64,000 nt of DNA from Schizochytrium sp. TIO01 (lineage: Eukaryota; Sar; Bigyra; Thraustochytrida; Thraustochytriidae), in assembly GCA_004764695.1 (NCBI GenBank), contig SMSO01000031.1, positions 7,683,261-7,747,260 on the forward strand, written 5' to 3'. Below, in pieces: positions 1 to 39,049 of the stretch. Position 1 is the stretch's first letter, and each line of letters opens with the position of its first letter. The translations under genes and the position numbers were made by a program. Below the pieces are notes generated by a model, which worked only from the letters and a program-made list of their open reading frames with translations, made no database searches and was not told where the DNA came from.

Positions 1-3000
1 AATCGAGAAGGTCGCAATGACGAGATATGATCTGAATGGCAATCTCAACTTCTTCGCCAGGCTCAATTTGGCCATCTGTAGCGCTAAAGTCAACCTTTAG
101 ATAGCTAGGAATAACAAGGCGATCCATGAGAACAGTCCACTCTCCAAAAGCTGTGCCTACGTTGCGTAAAATAAACTTTGCAGTAGAAGGACAGTGCAAG
201 GTAACAAGACCCATATCTTGTTGAAGGGCGTCCGCTTCTAAAATAACTCGACCGATATCAGCAACTATAGGAACATTGATAATTGACCAATGCCCATCCG
301 GAACAAGTTGCCAGCGAATTTTCAAATTCGAATCAAGAGTGGTGAGATCTTCAAACAAATGCTCATCCTCAACTGGCACGCAACAATTTATGAATATAGC
401 CTCTGTGCCTCCAGATGCGCCAAGTACAAATATCTCCTGGCTTGAAGAGAAGTATGGAGATTCGCATAAGACTTCCAAAGTGGCTTTGAGAGATCCACTA
501 TTGCTTAGAACAAGCTTTGCAGATGACTCTACTCCGAATTTGATTGCAGAAAAGCGCACTGCGTCGGACTTTGCTTCAACTCGAGCAGCTGCACCAACTC
601 CACTTAAAGAGACATTTCGTCGACCAAAGACATCTTCAAGAGCTAATTGAGCGTGGTATTCAGTGTTTGCGTGTATGGGACGAAATCGCACTGGTATTGT
701 GACAGTGCAACCAGGTTCTACGACCAGTGCACTGTCAGGGATCTCGAAGCTCAAATTATTGCATCGTGCACAATGAAAGGATTGCGGCTGAAGAGACTCG
801 TTGGTCGCAGAAATGTACATCATCGTCCCTTCGTTGTGCACATCTGGAGGGAAATGTTCTTGCGCCGCGGTTGGCTTAAAGCTGAGCTGTTGAGGCCTGA
901 AAACAAGTCTTCGAACGGCAGTTCCTTCCAAACGCATGTTAAAGGACGAGCTCTCTACACTAAGAATTTCTGCATCTCCTAGTTCAACATCAGTGCGCAT
1001 GTCAGGAACCTGCCAAGGCAAGAAGTCCATGGCAATTGGTACACTAACTGGAATACATACATCGGCAATGAAACTAACTCGTAAGATAAATGAATCTCCA
1101 GATTTCAGAGGAGGCAACTCAGGCAGCTCAGCATTTTGATAACGGTCTAGCGGTGCTTCAGGAATTAGAAGCCGTGGCATTAAGCCACCTTCCCTTTGAA
1201 GAAACCGTTCTAAGCTCGGCATCTGCATTTGCACTCATGAGCAGGTTGGCCTGTTCTGGGTGAAGCAGGCAAGATGATTGACTCAGAATCAAGCTCGATG
1301 AATTCGAATGCTGGTGCATGCTATTTGTAAATAAATGAGGTCTTGATCCACTATTTTGTTCCAGGTACTGTTGCATGGAGCGATTGAGCTGAGAACTAGA
1401 GTTACCCAGTTGCAGCATGTCTTGACGCGAACCTTGTTTAAGTTTAACAGATTGAAAAAATTTCGAATTGCGTCCGTAGGAAGGTTTCTCCATCCTGAAA
1501 GATGTCTCGCGGCGTTTTTGAAATGCAACAGACCCGTGAGCTTTGAAGGAAGCTCTGCTACGCAGTGCCCGTGACATAGCTGGCATTTTAATCTTTTGGA
1601 TAGAAGCAGAACCTGTGATTCTCGATTGCAGTTGTTTTGCGCGCGTTTTTCGCACAGCATGACCCAGACGCTGTTTAAGAACAATCCAAGTATATGGCCT
1701 TTCGGTGATCGGCATGACATTCGTTGTCTCAGTAAAAGAGGGCAATACTCCAATGAATGTGATGCGAGTTCTACGAAGCTGCCAGGCCAAGTTCCGTAGA
1801 CCAGTGTACTTGATACGAGAAAGGCACAGGGGAAGATTCCCAGTATTTGTCACTGTAACAAAACTTGAACTTATTGTTCCGTATTTGCGCGGACCAAACT
1901 GCACCAAACCGCCACTATGCGAGACGGAGGACAACAAGTTCATCTCACCGCAAATTCCTCGTAATAAGAATACTGAAGGCTTTCCATTTAGCATGCAAGT
2001 GAGCTCTTGTAAATACGAGCCTCCCGAAGAAGCAAAGAACGTGATAACAACATCAGCCTCTCCATTGGGCTTCATTACAACTTGTCGAGGGGAGACATTG
2101 AACGGGCTCGCAACCGTAAAGCTCAGTTCTTGTGATGTTGTACCTCTATTGACTAGTCGCCAAGTGCGAACTGTGCTCCCCCCCTGCGGAATAGCCCCGA
2201 AGTCAAACAGATCGTCGGCCTCAGGCAAGCCATGAATTGCCTCGATGTAAGCGTTTGCAACTAAATTAATGTGGCTTGTGTATGAAGCTTTCTCCTCGGC
2301 GTTGCTGTTATCAGGACATAAGCTTGTTGTAACTATGAGGGCTTCTTTGAGATTTTCTTGCGATTCAGGCTTATACACCACAGGTACAAAGACAGCTTCA
2401 AAGGGTTGTAGTATCCCCGCAGAGCTCTCAGGAAGAAGCTGAAAGGGAGAATAACCGCAGCGATCCTGCAAATCACTAGGCAGGGCGACAGTGAAATTCA
2501 CTGGATGGATTGACCAATTTCGCAGAGCCGCCCAACGGCGCGTGCACGTTCCAGCAAGGCAAGATCCAAAATTTAGTTCTGCTGTCTTGCCTGATCTTGG
2601 TAAAAGATGCAAACTCAAAGGACCGCCGCGTTGGATAAGAATGCTCGATAGATGCGATGCAATGCTTCCACTTTCTTGGGTATAATTCTTAATAGCGAGA
2701 AACCCAAATTCGCACGGTGCGACGCACGGAGAGTTTCGGTTCACAATTATTCGAGAAGAAGCTTCAATCGCTGTAGCAGATATTCCCCGTGATACTATCA
2801 AGGACTTGGGTGTATCTTCATCTGAATATATCGAAGTTTCCAACACCACCTCCGGAGTCGATCTGTCATAGTGTAATATCAACGGTTGATCTGGAGTTTG
2901 ATAAGTATTTTCACCAACAACACTCCAAGCCAGCTGCTCAACTGCTTGACAAGCATCCATTTCTTCAGAAGTAAACTCTGCATCACATCGCTTGCATAGC

Positions 3001-6000
3001 TCTGCAGTGTGCTGAGATATACTTCCTAGTTGCTTGCAAAACTCCAATGTACTTCCGGCAGGACCAACAAAGCTGTTTGGTCTCGTTTCACCTACCCACG
3101 ATTCAATGGAAGCTATACGATTAAGATCAAAACCAGCGGGGACCCCTTGGAGGCTAGGTGCAGTAACAATTCCCACAAGCTCGATGAGTCCGCAAGGTCC
3201 TGCAGCAGCGTATGTCACAGACACAGGTCGCGTTATTCGGAGACCTAGGATTGCTCGGTATATGCCACGGCATTTGCCTGGCTGAAATTGAATTTCAATC
3301 CATGCGTAGCCAAGTCCTGGTATGGTATCACTGTCAAGTAAAGTTGAACCTACAGAAGCAGTAAAACGGTCTCCTAAAGGAAGCAAAACGAAGTCAATAT
3401 CATAAGGTGAGTGATTGACAAGTGGAATTCGCAAGGTCACGGGTTCGTCACTGGGTAGCAAGGTACCGAAATATGTTCTTGGGGCTACAGGGAACTCCAA
3501 AGCTCGCCCTACAAAGCCAATAACACGAATTCTCAAAGGACACTTGAGAATTGCTGCAGTAACTTCGATAGTTCGATCAAAAGCACCTGTCCAATCACCG
3601 GGACCTGTTAGCTGTAAATCCACAACAACTTGATCCCGCCCTGGAATACCAATCAAATTTGGAATTTTGATCCACCCGCAACCCTTAAGGTTTATACCCA
3701 CTAAGACATTTTCAGTTGAGATATTCTCTAGAATAAATTTTCGTTTGAGAACCTGAAACGGGTCAACTAATCCGAAGTCTATTTGTAAACATGATTCTTG
3801 ATCCTCCCTAAGCCAAGTAAGACCTTCCGTAGAAGCTGGAACATCAGTCGCTAAATCGGGATTGGCATCTTGCACAGATTTGCCTGCAATGCTCTTGTTC
3901 ATAGCCGAACGAGCCAGGTTTTCAAGAAATGGTGTTTGTTCTTTTGGTCTTTCAAGAGGGTTATCGTATGGATAACGACGCCGAACCTGAAAGCCAGAAA
4001 TTCCACTCATTTTGCTAACAATTTTACGAACCTGTGACCAATTCTTTTTCATTGAGCCGCCTGTTGTGATGCTATTGGAAGCAGCTACATCCGATTCTAA
4101 GAGGCCTCCTCCTTTTGCAGCAACAGGATTAATGCGGCCCTGCAAAATTTCCGCGCCCTCGGCTAAATGGCTTATCGTAGGTTGGCTTTTCAGGCGCATT
4201 GCGCGCAATGTGCTTTTTCTCTTTTTTTCTAAAGTGGGTTGCACATTTCTTGATTGGTCAGTTGGGTCAGCATCAAATAGTAACTTTTCACGAGGATTCA
4301 AGCCTCGCGCCACAATCGGCAATCCACAAAATGCAGAAATAGGCAACATGTGCTCTTCTGCAGTGTTAGTTGTAACACAGAGACATGCTTCGTGTTTTCC
4401 TGGCATATCCCCAGGAGCAAAATGGATGGGTACAAACGCGTCTTGATACTTAAAGATGCTCAGTGATTGTGTGTCAACCGCAAAAAGTAAAGCAGCATCA
4501 TCTTCGAAAGTATCATCCTGAAGTCCATCAGCAATTGGAACAACCTTGAAATTTAAGTCCAATTTCTCACCACAAAGATTAGAAACTGCAGCAACAAACA
4601 TACTGTTTTGACCGGGTAAAAGCCACAGGGGTCGGCGTTGTACGTTGCTGACTTTGACAACCGGACCTCTAAAACCTTTTAGTTCAGCTGTACCGAGTAC
4701 CTGTCCAGCAAAGTCCTGAATCCTAACCTCTCCACGAATTGGAGCAGAGCGCTCGGGGTGCTTGTTTGGACGAAATATTATTTTAATTGTGACAGAAGTA
4801 ACCTTTGGGGAGAAGCGTAACACGGCAGGTTCGACCTCAAAAACTTCAGCAGGATCGAGCATAACAAAAACGTTGAGTTCATGCTGAGGAGCCACTTTAG
4901 TCTGCACTGTAATGTTTCGTTGCTCCTCGGACATTGAGTGAGTAAATTCAATAACAGCGTGTTCAAAAAGGAGCTGTACCGGCCTAGATGTTTTTACTTC
5001 ATCATCTCCACCAGCATAAAGTGATGCCATCAAAGACATTGTAGAGCCAGATTTAAGCGAGCTGGTTGCTTCAGACTCTGCAAAACCAAAGCCGTCGCTG
5101 AAACCGATATCATCATCATCTTCTTCTTCTTCTTCTTCACTAGCGTCGATAGACGTTCTGGATAAGCTTACAGGGCCTCCAATTCTTGAAGAACTGTCGT
5201 CGCTTGCTATGGCTCCTGATGGCAACGATTCAAGATCATCTACCTGGCTCAAACTCCGTTTGGAAATTTGCGTACCTCCGCCGAAGAACCCGGCTCCAGA
5301 AGCTGCCCTGCCCCGCATGAAAGCGGTAGCAACTTGGAGTTTGGCAATAAGATTTGATGTTCCCTTACCCAGATGTCGGCGCGTAGAGCGTAGCGCCTTA
5401 CGGACCATAGCACGTCGTCGTGCATAACCTTGGAAAAGAGGATGTAACACGATGGAAACTGCAGAATAAAATGGAACACCTGTCGATGTATACCCTGTGG
5501 GCAGAGGAAGCAGACCGCCCTCTGTTCGATAAAAGGGACGCCCATAGTTACTATAAACCAGCGGACGCTCAAGCTTGGAAACATCCCCATTGATTTGATA
5601 TGCAAATTTTCCCTCTCGTGAGCATGCAACTGCTCGCTTGCGTAATGGCAAAGCAGCTCCATAGAGAGGAGATCCTGAACCTTGCATATATTGATCAGGT
5701 TCAGGTGGTAAATTACACGGCGGAGCAAAAATGACTTTGCCATTGCTGCACAAGCCAGCAGGAATCGGATTTGATCGTGCCATGTTAGCACTCGTCTCGT
5801 CTTTATCAGAACCCCACATTTCAAGACTTTGCTCATCTTCCATAACCTCTAAGACCGTGACCATGGCCACAAATACTGTGCCAGCAGAAGTGCGAAAACG
5901 AATTTCAACTTGGTCGTCTTCCATCCAGTACATATCATCATTATCGTGACCTTCATTCTCATCGTCTTCATCGTTATTGAAACGCAGATCGACACTTGCA

Positions 6001-8699
6001 GATTGTGCCGGAGTCAGAGAATCTGCGGTGGTGACTCGAGTAATTTGACCCAGAAAGCGTCTTATTGGGTCATTCACAGTCTCTGTAATCCATATCTCAA
6101 TTTCGCCGCCTTCTAAAAAGCGGCTGCCAATCTGGCTCACAACGTGGTTTTCTAGTGATTTTTTGGGGAAGGGATGGTAAGCGGATACAATTGGCACTGA
6201 AGCTGTGGTATATTCATGTGGGTCAAAGGCCGAGGCCGCATCTGACATTGAGTTGTCTTGCCGACGAAAGCTTGTGCTAAGCGTTGAGCTGGCATGCGAG
6301 GCAATATCTCCATTTTCCCATATCGGCTGGTTGACATCTGCATCAACGTATGGTGTCATTGGAGGTTCCCAACCGTCAGCAAATCGAACTGGTTGGTCAG
6401 AGAGTAGTTTCGCATTATTGGAGCCATTCTTGAATACAACAGGCAGAAAACCTGCTGGTACGGTTGTCACAGAAAGGTACCCAAAGCTGTGCGCACTCAC
6501 CTCACTAGGGTCACGAGGATCTGCTGGGTTAACCTCTAGGTTTGCATCGTTTTCTATATCTGCAATACCTTTTACTTGAAGGCTTGTGTTCTTGTTCGAA
6601 AGAATTTGAAATCGAGACCTTTCAGCCCCGTGGGCTTTAGGTAGCTCTAGCACCCCTTGTTGCGGCGGTGGATACGGAGAAAAGCCAAGTTCGACGAATT
6701 CTTGTAGCTCAGGAATATCTTGCACCATTGCTGGAGTACACATGGGAACATGCTCCTTCCCTGGTCGGAAGAGCATTGGAGGAACTGTTGTGCAATTCTC
6801 TGGGACTTCAGGGAGTTCTGGAATTCGCAATGCCACGCGCACAGTTGCTTGCGCGGATCCATAGGCAACTACCGCGATGCCATCAATTCCAGTAATCCTT
6901 TCGAGAGTATTGTCACCATCCGCAATAAATTTCCGCATACTCCTTGCACCATTTAAGGAATTACTTGCGGTTCTAACAGCGCTGTGTGCCTCAGATCCGT
7001 GCGCAAGGAGTTGTGCGACAGTACCAGGTCTTTGCAATATAACACGCACTCCTTCAACACGTCGTCTCACCTCTACACGAATCTGGTCAAGCTCACCTTT
7101 TGCAGCATCTTCAATCTTTTTGAAACCTGTAAAAGGTGCATTTTGAGCGCCAAGAAGTGCAGGGAATCCTGTTACGCATTCCAGACGAAGCTCTGCAGCT
7201 CGGTATCTGACTTCGAGTTCGTCCATTCGAGAATATACGCTTGCCCAGGTGCCGAGAAAAGCAAGTGCCGCCTTTTCGACTAGACGATCACGATAGTCTT
7301 GCAGCATATCCTGCATCAAGGGCACAAAAAGGGCGCAAAACCTCAAGAGCCCAAGGTCCATATCTTTGGCATCACTGTGGAAAGCCTCTTGCTCGAACTC
7401 ATCAAGCTCGTCTTCAAATTCGTCAAGGCCATCCTGGTCATCCTCCACATGCTGGGACAATAGAATTCGAGACTCGGTTTCAAGCATTGTCAGAAAATTA
7501 GCAACAACGAGAGGAGACAGTCGCACACGCGACGCTAGTAGCTCATATGCAACAAAAAGGATTCCAGATCGGCTCCACAAACGGGTCTCCGGCTGCTCAA
7601 ATTGGATGACTCCACCAAGGCAACTTCCTAGGACCGCGATCACACGTTGAACGGGTCTATTACTTTCTCGGAAACACCAGTATCGGCCGAGCTCACCAGT
7701 TTCGCCACCGCAGCGATTAAAGGCATCCGCAATAAAGTGGAGCACAAACATTCGTATCCTCTCGCGTTGAGCTTGGGCCTCGGATCGTGAAGACCCGTCC
7801 AGGCGGTGGAAATTACTGGCCCGGCGGAATTGTTCATGGCCAGATGAGCTGCTCATTTCCCCGTGACCACTAAGTGTGGTACCCAAAAGCTGTGTGGCAA
7901 CAAGGCGATTATCCTCAACCTCGTCACCCACAATCATGTCTAGCAGATCCGTCACAAACTTACGCGCCACACGAGCCTCCAAAAGGTCCCACAACGGGTA
8001 TATCCGAAATAGCTGCCCAATTTTCAGCAGTGCGGCCTTCCGAAGTGGCGCTTCAGAATGACCCATCATGCCAAATAAGTTCTTCCACAGCCTCTGTGCC
8101 CCCCGAAAATCCTGCACAGCAAACGCTGAAGCCATATCTTTATCGCAAAGGTCTACCTCCAAAAAGTCCCGATCATACGCGGCCCCTTGCAGCAGTACCC
8201 TAGAGCTTACCGCCCACATCTCGTTGGGCGTCCTCGACGTTGCCGAAGCATTCTGGGTCACAGAAATTTCAGAGCCATGCCCGTACCCGCTCCGCGAGCT
8301 TCGTCCAGAGTCCGATACATTCCCATCAAACTGCGAATCCTCATCGATGCCCTTGTTTCTGGGAAAATCAGCGAAATCCTCGTTGCTGCTATCGTCATTG
8401 TTATCATTTAAGTCGTCATCAACGCTGCTCCTGCCGCCTGAAAATCCAAAGTCATCGTCTTCGTCAAGGCTTCCACCTTTGCGATTTTTAGCAAAGTCTT
8501 CTGCTGCAAATTCGTCGGCATCGAAGTCCTCTGCGGCAGAGTCTTCATTGTCAAAATCTGCATCGGAATCTGCACCGCGGCTGTCGCGAAAGGCAAATTC
8601 CTCGTCAGCGTCCGAGAAGCGGTCGGATGTGGCGCTCGCTCCGTCGGGGTCCAGGCCTGAGGGTGCACCACCTGCCGAGTCTGAGCTTCCTGTGCTCAT
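1..8699 (-). CDS. Giant ASH/MSP-domain protein, probably ciliary (C-terminus off the left edge)
   Basis: The start ATG is at 8699. The first frame runs 2513 codons to a TGA at 1158-1160. A second minus frame, open from 1234 to base 1, continues the same kind of sequence for about 410 codons, so the gene is at least 2900 residues. Residues 1-135 are rich in D, E and S, and about 160-560 look helical and armadillo-like. From about 1300 on there are repeated beta-sandwich segments of the ASH (ASPM/SPD-2/Hydin) type, with phrases such as FVTVTNTGNLPLCL and, in the second frame, VTIPVRFRPIHANTEY and AKLVLSNSGSLKATL. ASH repeats mark axonemal and centrosomal proteins (Hydin, CFAP65, CFAP47, DLEC1), but I cannot choose among them. 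The frame change lies between 1160 and 1234: either a small unrecognised intron or an extra base in CCC/TTT at 1192-1197. Confidence 0.72.
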
Positions 8700-9839: not shown

Positions 9840-12800
9840 CTACCAGGGTCGCTTCCAAGTCGACTCTCCAGTATTTTTATTTACATAGTAAGACGCTCCA
9901 TCGATTGCAGAATAGTACTCATCCCAATTTTCTTCTGGCCGACGTAAAGCATCAGGTTTTTCCCAAACTACTTCTTCAGTAGTATTAGTAAACTTATTCC
10001 AACAATAATAATAGGGGCGCCCAGATTCCTCATCGAAAGGCCTCAAACCACTGCTGGTTAGAAGTGTCGTCTAAAGCTGCCTGTCGCTCGGCAGCTGTGA
10101 GTTCGCGATTTGCCTTTTCGCGTTCTTCTGGTGTAAAGTACTCCTCTGGCTTGATGTAAGTCCATTCTCCAGTAATAGAACTCATCCAATATGGCTTGCT
10201 CTCATTATAATCCCAATATTCTGCATACTCGTATCCGATGTCCTCAATTGGACGTTCCCATCTCGCCTCCTGAGTATCACGGTTCACATAGAATGGACGA
10301 TTAAGTGCTGGGTGCATGTAAACCTTCCAAAGAGGCTCGTCAGGATCAGGACCTAATACTTTGGGGCGTTCCCATGTTGAAATCCCCATAGCAGTATTTT
10401 CATAATATTTTACACCAGAAGTTTCATCTACATGGACACTCCATTGGTTCATACGACGGTCCAGTTTTTCTTGCTCAATCTCTGCCCTAATGATTTTGCG
10501 CATATGCATCTCTTCATGTAGCATAAGACGCCGCTCATTACGCTCTCTCTCGGCGTAAACATACGCTATTGGCTTTTCAAAGCATGTTTCCATAGTTTGA
10601 CTGTTAAAATAGTATGTCTTTTCGTTCCACGTATCCCAATGTCGCGTCCATGCGCACTCCAGTTCACGATCTTCATCATTTGCGGCATTACGAGCAACTT
10701 GAACAAGGAAGGCTGTGTAAGCTCCCTGATTTCGCCTCCATTGGCGTTGAATTCTTAAAGCCGCTCGTTTTCTCGCAATGTAAAAGCGAAACAGCTTCTG
10801 AATTTTTCTTGCGCAATTATCTTTATTCATAGCATTTGCACGCATTAGCGCCTGCAAGTACGAACGTTTGACAGCAAGCGATCGGCGCACGAGGTACCCA
10901 CGAATATTGCATTGAATTCGCACTGCAGCCTCTTTTTGTTTTTTAAAGTATATTTTTGCAAGCGTGCCTCTAATAATGGCCTGAATTCGGGTTGCTGCTG
11001 TACGAGCCCGTAGCAAGAATCTACGTACAAGCATACCTCTCACAACTGCTTGCATTTTGATGATAGCACTCTTCTTTTTAATGTAAATAAGACGCTGTGT
11101 CCATCCTCGTGCTGCAGCTTGAATTTGGATTGAAGCATCGCGTTGTTCAACAAACCAGGATCTTTCCAGCCATCGCCTATATTGTGATTGAATAAGAATA
11201 GCTGCTTGCTTCTTCTTAAGAAATGCAGCACGTTGAACAATGCTTCGATATTTAGCTTGAAGATGAATACATGCCATGCGCAACATATGATAACGACGCT
11301 TATGAACAAAGGCCCGTGCTACGGATTGCATTTGAACCACTGCTCTGCGTCTTTGCGCTGCCCTTTTCCGAGCCAGGTGTCCACGAACAATTGCTTGAAT
11401 AGCTTTTGCATTCTTAGTCCGCTTTGCGTGTAGACGCCATCGCATACCAGCCAAGCTGAGAGCATGTTGACGCCTCTCAAGCTTATATTTCGCAGCAAGA
11501 TTAAGAATACGCGTTATTCGTCTTCTCCATGCACGCTGCACTCGAATAGCAGCAGATATGTGATCTCTAGACCATTGTATACTAAATATAATGCCCTCTT
11601 TACTGTTGAGATGTGCCTTCTCATGATCTTTTAGTACTCCGTGTATTACATGCATACAAGAACGACAAAATTTGCCTTCGCATGCTCGACAGTACACAGC
11701 ACAAACCTCGTCATTGCATTCATCGCATAAAGGCATGCCTTCAAGGCGATTGCGGCGTTCGCGTAATGCAGAGAGCATGCAACGTGCCGCGTGTGATCTC
11801 ACAGCTCGCTGTAAAATGAGAACTGCTTTCTTTTGCTGACAAAACGAATAGTGTTGCAGTTTAAGACGTATAAAAGCTTGGATTTGGATGATCGCACCTT
11901 TTCGCTGCTTGTACCAGCAGTGATGCCGCCACTTACGCTGGATTGACCATACTTTGTGATAAATACGTAGTTGCTTTGCTCGATATGCACGCTGAACAAT
12001 TCGTGCAGCTCGCTCACGTTGTTGGTTTCGGAGGTGAATAATAACAGCAAACTTCCTATAGAATTTCTGGATGATGTAAGCACATCGTTCACGTTCTCGC
12101 CGTATTAGGAAGTATCCCAGCTGTGCGTGTTTTGCCCGCCATCTTGCTTGAATCCGGAGTGCGCACAGCTCACGTTTTGTATGACGTGCATGCTTTGCTC
12201 TCCGCCGTGCTTGGCGTCCTCGAATAATGCGCTGCATTTCAATAGCACCTGCATTTTCCCGAATCTTTCTAAGACGTCGAAAGTGCACGTGCAATTTACC
12301 CTGGCGACAGCGCCACCTTGTCTGAATTCTCAGAGCGCATCTCTCGAGACGAAGATTTTCAAGCTTTTTCATTGCTGCTGCCATGCGCATAAACTGTGTA
12401 ACGCAAAGTGCTGCTTTCTGCCGCTTGTGAGCTTGCATGATCTTTCGCGCCACACTTGTCTCCACACAATTTCTCCATGCCTGTTGGATTGTAAATGCCG
12501 CATCTTCCTTCTGTTGGCATTTGCGAGCTTTTTGCAGCATTCTTTTTGCTATAATCTTTCTACCAAAGCATTGAATTTTAGTAGCAGCATTACGCTGGTA
12601 GCGTTCAAGACGCAGTCTATGCGCATTCCGTAAAGCATGGCGGCGACGAACTTGTGCAGCAATACGGGTTTGCGCTCGTCCTCGCCGAAGCCTGTGAATA
12701 TTGTTCCGGACAAAATGACCCCGATACACTCTTTGTATTTGCATTGCTGCAGCAGTTTGTCCTCTCTTTTTGGAAGTTGTCGGCCTGTGTTTTGATTGCA

Positions 12801-13564
12801 AGAAAAGCAGGTTCAAGCCTTTGTTTTCGCCATGCTACAAGAACCGAACGGAGCTTGAATTTGAGAAATTTGCGTTCATGAATCTCAAGACGCTGTTGTA
12901 AACGCTTTTCAATTTTATCCACCTCGTTGTTACTCTGCATAGCAGAAGGATCTGAAGCATAAAATGCGGGATCATGGGAGCTTTCGCGGAACATGCCCAA
13001 CTTTTCCACAACCTTGATTTCAATACGCCGTTCTCCTTCGTCATAAGCTTGTTGCATTCCTCTGTGAGGGTGCAGGTGAGCCTTGAACATATTATCTACC
13101 TCGGTTTGAACGTGGTCCACGCTCCAAGTTGACCCATGCCATACAAAGCTATGATGGCGCATCTCCACTCGAAATACACCTGCACAGAGAGATTCTGAGG
13201 TGGAGTCTAAATTGTTGATTTTGTCGAGTAAAATTGAGACATTTTTTTGAGGAAGACCTTTGGATCTAAACCCTCGGGAACGTATAGCAACACGCTTGGA
13301 AATTTGACTTCGACCAAGAGCTTTTCGATACTCTAAAGCTTTGGTTTTGGGTGTGCGGAATGGCTGCCCTGGTGTCTGTTTAAAGTCTTGATTTTGTGGT
13401 GGCCATGCAAGTTGCGCCCTCCTCTTCGTTAAACCCGGAACCTCAGGAACTGGCCGATCATAGTCCCTATCGTGGACCCCTGGTCTTGGACGCTTGCCCC
13501 TACGTGGTCGCTTCAGCCGACTACCTCCAGCATTTTCTGCGCTGGATGCTGCACGAATACCCAT
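9840..13564 (-). CDS. IQ-motif / B-box / WW-domain protein (about 1240 aa, two frame breaks)
   Basis: ATG at 13564 (MGIRAASS). The N-terminal frame (to about 12770) is basic, then acidic and helical. The main frame holds roughly 15-20 IQ motifs (for example AMQIQRVYRGHFVRN), the calmodulin/EF-hand-binding helices of myosin necks and ASPM. A B-box-like zinc finger sits mid-protein near 11650-11740 (CDECNDEVCAVYC, then CRACEGKFCRSCMHVIHG). The C-terminus has about six WW-like modules, such as VKYYENTAMGISTWERP and YYVNKNTGESTWKRPW. The frame changes twice: near 12767-12771 (five T on plus) and at 10036-10038 (AAA on plus), the second inside a WW module (WFEAF, then DEESGRPYYYCWN). Each would be repaired by one base fewer. 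IQ plus WW suggests a calcium-responsive cytoskeletal or ciliary scaffold; that role is inference. Confidence 0.7.
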
Positions 13565-38026: not shown

Positions 38027-39049
38027 TTAACGATCCATCTCCTCAGGTTCGGGGGATCCCTTGGCGGTGAGCTGAGCATTGTACTCAGCCTCGGCGAAGG
38101 CAAGGTTGCCCTTGTATTCACCACAGCAGCATGCACATGGATCAGCAATGCAGTTGCCGCTGCAGCACTTGCACATGCAGCATTTGTAGCGGCACTCAGT
38201 GCAGTCACAGCATTTGGGCTTGCTGCAGCATCCGCAGCCTACAATCATGAGAAATTTAGGAACACAATTGTACATTGAACATATGTACCTGTTAGTAACT
38301 CAATTTTCATTCTTCGTTTTGAAGACCGTCGCTGTCATTATGAAAGTGTTGTCATTAGAACTTACAGCATTTGCTCGGGTCGTTGAAGCTAAAGTTGGAG
38401 GACTCGCCAGCGCGGCCTGTATTTCAAAACATAGTAAAAGAAAGAATAATGAGATATATACGCAGAGGGCGAAGATCAACCATCAATCAACACAGAATGC
38501 AACACACAAAAAATATTAGTCGTCACCTTTGAACACTCAATTAGCAAAAGCATATTAGAAACGTACAGCACATGATATCGCAGCATTTTCCACAGCATCC
38601 GCGGTCACAGCAGTCCGGAATGCAATCCACGTAACAGCAGCCACAGCAGCACTGTGAAATCGAAAAATCACCAGGTCCGGATTCGATGAAGATGTCTCAT
38701 CTCATTGTTAGTGTAAAAGTTCTATAAAGTTATAGAGATTGTTAATCTGCCCCGTATACAATTCAACTCTACTTCAAGTGTCGGTTTCTTCCCTCGACCA
38801 CCGCACCATGGGCTTGAACGGGAAGAGGAGACGAGTTTCTTGCTTCCTCGCACTAACTCAATAAGAAACGCTCTGCCTCGGGTTTCTTCTGCTATAGCCT
38901 ACTAGCACATAGCTTGAGCACTCTTCTTATGGTGGGAGCAACAAACGGGGCGATCGCAGTCACGAGCGAAACAGCATTTTATGCCGGAAGGCTTTGGGAC
39001 CTGCGGCGTTACGACCTGAATTGTCCATTGGTAAACTTACGACAGTCAT
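38027..39049 (-). CDS. Cysteine-rich protein, 118 aa with 33 Cys, four exons
   Basis: Reconstructed by splicing on the minus strand: exon 1 39041-39049 (ATG ACT GTC), exon 2 38567-38651, exon 3 38366-38416, exon 4 38027-38238 (TAA). Donors are GTAAGT, GTACGT and GTAAGT; acceptors are TTTCACAG, AAATACAG and ATTGTAG. All four exons join in one frame. The product begins MTVCCCGCCYVDC and carries mostly CC pairs and CxC spacings in two blocks (about residues 4-32 and 48-87), separated by a 15-residue hydrophilic linker (RAGESSNFSFNDPSK). It ends in a Cys-free acidic tail (EAEYNAQLTAKGSPEPEEMDR). There is no signal peptide or membrane segment. The density (28% Cys) and lack of aromatic residues in the blocks resemble metallothioneins, though it is longer and has CC doublets. 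Metal binding is inference; no family is recognised. Confidence 0.72.

Follow-up and report, generated by a model that had tools for sequence, protein, structure and literature searches.

A conserved four-exon gene of Schizochytrium sp. TIO01 encodes a possible metal-binding protein with two cysteine blocks and an acidic tail

Gene structure and splicing

The window, by which we mean the whole stretch of 64,000 nucleotides analysed here, carries on its minus strand (39049-38027) a gene consisting of four exons of 9, 85, 51, and 212 bases, separated by introns that are all of the GT-AG type. The elements of this gene, in the order in which they are read, are listed below.

39041..39049, minus strand: exon 1, ATGACTGTC, encoding MTV, with the donor GTAAGT next to it; placed by the sequence and by the start Met column in relatives
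38652..39040, minus strand: intron 1, 389 bases, GTAAGT...CACAG
38567..38651, minus strand: exon 2, Cys block 1; placed by the sequence and by the alignment of homologues
38417..38566, minus strand: intron 2, 150 bases, GTACGT...TACAG
38366..38416, minus strand: exon 3, linker GESSNF..NDP that joins the two Cys blocks; alignment with P0001 and P0002 without gaps over both junctions
38239..38365, minus strand: intron 3, 127 bases, GTAAGT...TGTAG
38027..38238, minus strand: exon 4, Cys block 2, the conserved DPCA.CCGEYKG motif, the Cys-free acidic tail, and the stop codon TAA

The spliced product comprises 357 bases with the stop codon and is translated into 118 residues, 33 of them Cys (28.0%). 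The sequence-only reading had proposed exactly such a four-exon gene, contained in no open frame, and both parts of this proposal are borne out. The join was computed, homologues are present, and junctions 2/3 and 3/4 are ungapped in the alignments of the window protein to P0001 and P0002; in turn, none of the six frames of the region holds the whole protein in one piece. On the evidence of homology, the four-exon Cys-rich gene is real and spliced in the pattern given above. The small size of its exons means that single-frame searches detect it only exon by exon.

For the first exon of 9 bases, the evidence is less direct than for junctions 2/3 and 3/4. The start column of the window protein is also occupied by Met in P0002, P0004, and P0005 (MPV, MVK, and MPK in the alignment), the residues on both sides of the start codon read LAK-MTV in the window and LAK-MPV in P0002, and an in-frame TAA is found six codons upstream of the window Met. 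In P0003, the nearest Met is located one column after that of the window, within a longer frame (MEGRFAGAMIL), and the model of the Hondaea protein starts with MEERQAGTK, with no Met at the window start column. The N-termini of P0001 (MEERQAG) and P0003 (MEGRFAG) are alike, and both are unlike the MTV start of the window. Since these two starts resemble each other, an alternative N-terminus is possible in those species, and it is possible that other N-termini exist, or are annotated, among the relatives.

A second short CC-rich reading is present within intron 1 on the minus strand, from 38976 downstream (CCFARDCDRPVCC / CCFARDCDRPVCCSHHKK). An extra Cys exon at this place was rejected, since by eye no GT-AG pair retains the frame together with both CC pairs. 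A loose CC..C..CC pattern has 30 overlapping matches in the six frames of the window, with 9 in the gene, one in the intron 1 reading, and 20 elsewhere. As the pattern is this frequent, chance is a plausible origin of the intron 1 reading, the other candidate being the relic of a duplicated exon.

Homologues and distribution

A search of the spliced protein against 5.8 billion proteins gave two candidates, both of which match. P0001 is the protein FCC1311_101342 of Hondaea fermentalgiana, a thraustochytrid stramenopile; this direct homologue (78% identity, E 1.5e-51) has no name other than hypothetical, and its annotated N-terminus differs. P0002 is filed under Durusdinium trenchii (69% identity, E 2.6e-41) and is labelled partial, with a query coverage of 100%. 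These matches are not due to Cys content, because the identities with the window protein, counted only where neither sequence has Cys, amount to 63/83 for P0001 and 57/80 for P0002. A chance origin of the reading was likewise rejected, as the homologues span the coding blocks and agree at non-Cys positions.

A three-sequence profile, with E up to 10, found 5 proteins from 7534 candidates, and a six-sequence profile found 8 from 540, namely P0001 to P0008. The six relatives added by the profile searches are in part fragmentary: P0006 is without most of block 1, P0008 without still more of it, and P0005, as well as the N-terminal part of P0007, resembles intron read-through. Five proteins (the window protein and P0001 to P0004) were counted as full length. 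Frameshifts within the Cys blocks of relatives had been named in the sequence-only reading as an outcome that would speak against the gene; both blocks are collinear in all four full-length homologues. To judge from these alignments, the gene is common to Hondaea and other relatives, and hence not private to one species.

P0004 originates from a 495 kb contig filed under the chytrid fungus Batrachochytrium salamandrivorans, and the contig of P0002 is 20.8 kb long. With D. trenchii, which we take to be a dinoflagellate, homologues thus appear under dinoflagellate and chytrid labels. Both labels may reflect either contamination of the assemblies or gene transfer, and no literature on contamination or transfer behind them was found. 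In the 64 Mb genome of the organism itself, a single locus emerges when the spliced protein, P0006, or P0004 serves as the query (E up to 10), with the proviso that such searches work exon by exon and that a very divergent copy could escape them. One peptide pattern had no match in viral contigs.

Conservation of the cysteines

The window protein has a mass of 12.7 kDa and a pI of 4.76, and it contains 7 aromatic residues among its 118 and no His. As the sequence-only reading had described, its Cys residues are arranged in two blocks followed by an acidic tail free of Cys (residues 88-118, pI 4.3). The string CCCGCC is present in both blocks, there are 15 overlapping CC pairs, and the Cys residues extend over 84 residues. 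Among the five full-length proteins, 18 of the 33 Cys never vary; block 1 contains 8 of them and block 2 the other 10. Invariance extends to 22 non-Cys positions, which is consistent with a folded protein, and Tyr90 is among the residues found in all five.

The remaining Cys positions vary in a characteristic way. In the 33 columns that hold Cys in the window protein, 27 of the 132 cells of the four full-length homologues are occupied by another residue, F in 7 cases, L in 6, G and W in 3 each, Y and V in 2 each, and P, M, A, and H in one each, with Ser absent. The fraction of exchanges to hydrophobic residues (L/I/V/M/F/W/Y) is 21/27 vs 0.43 expected (binomial p 2.4e-4) and that of exchanges to Ser is 0/27 vs 0.29 expected (p 1.1e-4), where the expectation is taken from the one-base neighbours of Cys codons (43% hydrophobic, 29% Ser) and the p-values serve as a guide only, being too small, because the aligned proteins are related by descent and certain exchanges take more than a single base change. 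In 14 of the 15 variable columns, one or more of the four homologues carry a hydrophobic residue; column 22 has only Pro. When P0006 to P0008 are included with P0007 cut, 32 of 43 exchanges are hydrophobic and none is to Ser; with P0007 uncut, the numbers are 36 of 50 and one.

Such a pattern would be unexpected if all Cys were metal ligands, and it fits 18 ligands combined with a set of hydrophobic sites, several of them possibly converted to Cys in this species. If the protein binds metal, exchanges of Cys for hydrophobic residues would offer a direct means of separating ligand Cys from packing Cys.

Comparison with known families

In accordance with the earlier remark that no familiar family is matched, nothing significant was found in Pfam, NCBIfam, or the PDB. 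The window protein has no Pfam match at E 1, and neither do six aligned family members at E 10; among P0003, P0004, and P0006 to P0008, the only match is a weak one of P0007 to LSM, below the cut-off. NCBIfam, scanned with the eight homologues, gave no match. In the PDB, the window protein yielded one chance-level match to a 29-residue peptide (E 0.63), and a profile of the eight homologues yielded none. An AlphaFold prediction made on P0001 together with seven relatives has a mean pLDDT of 37.7 and provides no usable model. Judged by titles and abstract openings, none of the papers listed for thraustochytrid metallothioneins or for cysteine-rich proteins of Hondaea fermentalgiana describes such a gene.

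Under a loose definition of metallothioneins, given in PMC7216689 (no more than 300 aa, between 15 and 35% Cys, and aromatics below 10%), the window protein with its 118 aa, 28.0% Cys, and 7/118 aromatics falls within the class, and P0002 lies slightly above the aromatic limit (12/115 in the aligned part). A strict description, taken from PMC1808422, calls for a mass under 7-10 kDa and for the absence of aromatics and His; here the window protein agrees in its lack of His alone, departing by its 12.7 kDa and its 7 aromatics, including the invariant Tyr90. The same paper names accepted exceptions to the no-aromatics rule, states that MTT3 and MTT5 likewise break it, and places the number of conserved Cys typically at 18-23 (PMC1808422). 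The 18 invariant Cys fall within this range, and the 15 further ones vary, mostly to hydrophobic residues.

Ciliate metallothioneins are described there as long proteins with abundant CC and CCC (PMC1808422), so that a length in excess of that of usual metallothioneins, which the sequence-only reading had pointed out, is no mark of novelty. The window protein resembles ciliate family 7a (Tetrahymena MTT1, MTT3, and MTT5) in being long for the class, in having more than 25% Cys, and in carrying most of its Cys in CC or CCC (PMC1808422). Unlike metallothioneins, however, it has no match to the curated metallothionein models in Pfam at E 1 or E 10, it contains aromatics such as Tyr90, and 15 of its 33 Cys vary. 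The window protein, which suits the loose definition and departs from the strict one in mass and aromatics, may well function as a metallothionein does. Judged by the many Cys that behave as hydrophobic residues, it is not an ordinary one.

Possible function and alternatives

The best explanation, to which we assign a probability of about 0.5, is that the gene encodes a small folded protein that binds metal through the thiols of its two Cys blocks and ends in an acidic tail. In each of two folded sub-domains, the invariant Cys (8 in the first block, 10 in the second) would most likely coordinate a soft metal (Zn, Cu(I), or Cd) as thiolates, and the conserved acidic tail would follow. The other 15 Cys would probably be buried in the protein interior or turned towards a membrane rather than serve as obligatory ligands, because 14 of their positions are hydrophobic in at least one full-length relative. 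We infer metal binding, the two domains, and the cellular location from sequence. This explanation is favoured by homology over all coding blocks, by the 18 invariant Cys and 22 invariant non-Cys positions, by the CCCGCC string of both blocks, and by the composition (28% Cys, pI 4.76, no His); counted against it are the lack of matches to metal-binding families by sequence in Pfam, NCBIfam, and the PDB, as well as the fact that the hydrophobic exchanges also suit a membrane protein. The chance-level number of metal-response-like sites upstream, the phytochelatin synthase matches in the genome, and the unusable AlphaFold model likewise weigh against it. Of the metal-storage or redox class suggested earlier, plain metal storage is weakened by the variation of 15/33 Cys with 21/27 exchanges hydrophobic. 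Tentatively, we can also speculate that an unnamed family present in thraustochytrids and certain other protists uses Cys in two roles, as 18 fixed metal ligands and at up to 15 further positions that are mostly occupied by bulky hydrophobic residues in relatives, its members being folded, possibly membrane-attached, and unlike classic metallothioneins.

The main rival, which appears doubtful to us and yet deserves consideration, is a peripheral membrane protein with S-acylated CC pairs, similar to cysteine-string proteins, in which the hydrophobic exchanges would mark membrane-facing positions. The 21/27 hydrophobic exchanges with no Ser agree with it, as do the very hydrophobic Cys/aromatic stretches that end block 1 in P0005 and P0006 and that may partly be intron read-through, but charged and small residues (D, R, K, G, and P), several of them invariant, lie between the Cys. 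We take cysteine-string proteins to be comparable in view of the Cys runs among aromatics in some relatives; unlike them, the window protein has no J domain (no Pfam match), and its Cys are spread over 84 residues. An improbable reading, weaker than that of an S-acylated protein, makes the window protein a distant offshoot, stripped of its hydrophobic segments, of the PLAC8 family (plant cadmium resistance, FW2.2, onzin). The appeal of this reading lies in Cys set among hydrophobic residues, in a PCALC-like motif (C..DPCALCCGEYK here vs C.EPCALCQEYR in FW2.2), and in similar C-terminal ends, all noted by eye. P0004 compared with FW2.2 scores above all 300 Cys-preserving shuffles, but this is the only such pair among 18 (six family members with three PLAC8 proteins), the next best being at 13/300. 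The three PLAC8 sequences used here all match PF04749 in the Pfam scan; the same model has no match, at E up to 10, among the 9 members of the present family that were searched, and the hhalign score of 14.1 lies inside 60 column shuffles (maximum 20.1) and 60 shuffles with Cys kept (maximum 17.6). PLAC8 membership was rejected on these grounds, and divergent kinship is retained as a rival only. Still less probable is a redox or structural protein with Cys in disulfides or cross-links, like the keratin-associated proteins: the 15 overlapping CC pairs would suit it, but by eye no secretion signal is apparent in the protein, which starts with MTVCCC, and 15/33 Cys are not conserved in the five full-length proteins.

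Elsewhere in the genome, the sole weak PLAC8 match (L012, 25.4 bits) is below the cut-off of 34.4; it was rejected as a relative by eye, the reverse-strand frame at that place encoding a hydrophobic protein with few Cys.

Genomic context

In the 1 kb upstream of the gene, both strands together contain one metal-response-like site vs about one expected (0.52 per kb per strand), and an enrichment was therefore rejected. Another search pattern was dropped as too common, with 10542 forward and 10780 reverse matches. Two matches to phytochelatin synthase in the genome exceed the cut-off (L015 and L016; G000:C31 and C34), and therefore the Cys-rich protein need not be the main metal buffer; that it is the sole thiol-based one in the cell is unlikely. 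In one of the two, an in-frame TGA is present in the matched stretch, perhaps because of an intron. What the locus offers is a conserved family without a name which, if metal-binding, would extend the thraustochytrid repertoire by a thiol metal protein.

Two other frames of the window, both on the minus strand, have recognizable Pfam domains. A frame of 2513 residues (1158-8699) contains HYDIN/CFAP65-like Ig domains, a type that we presume to be ciliary, and a frame of 928 residues (10030-12816) includes seven IQ and three WW stretches.
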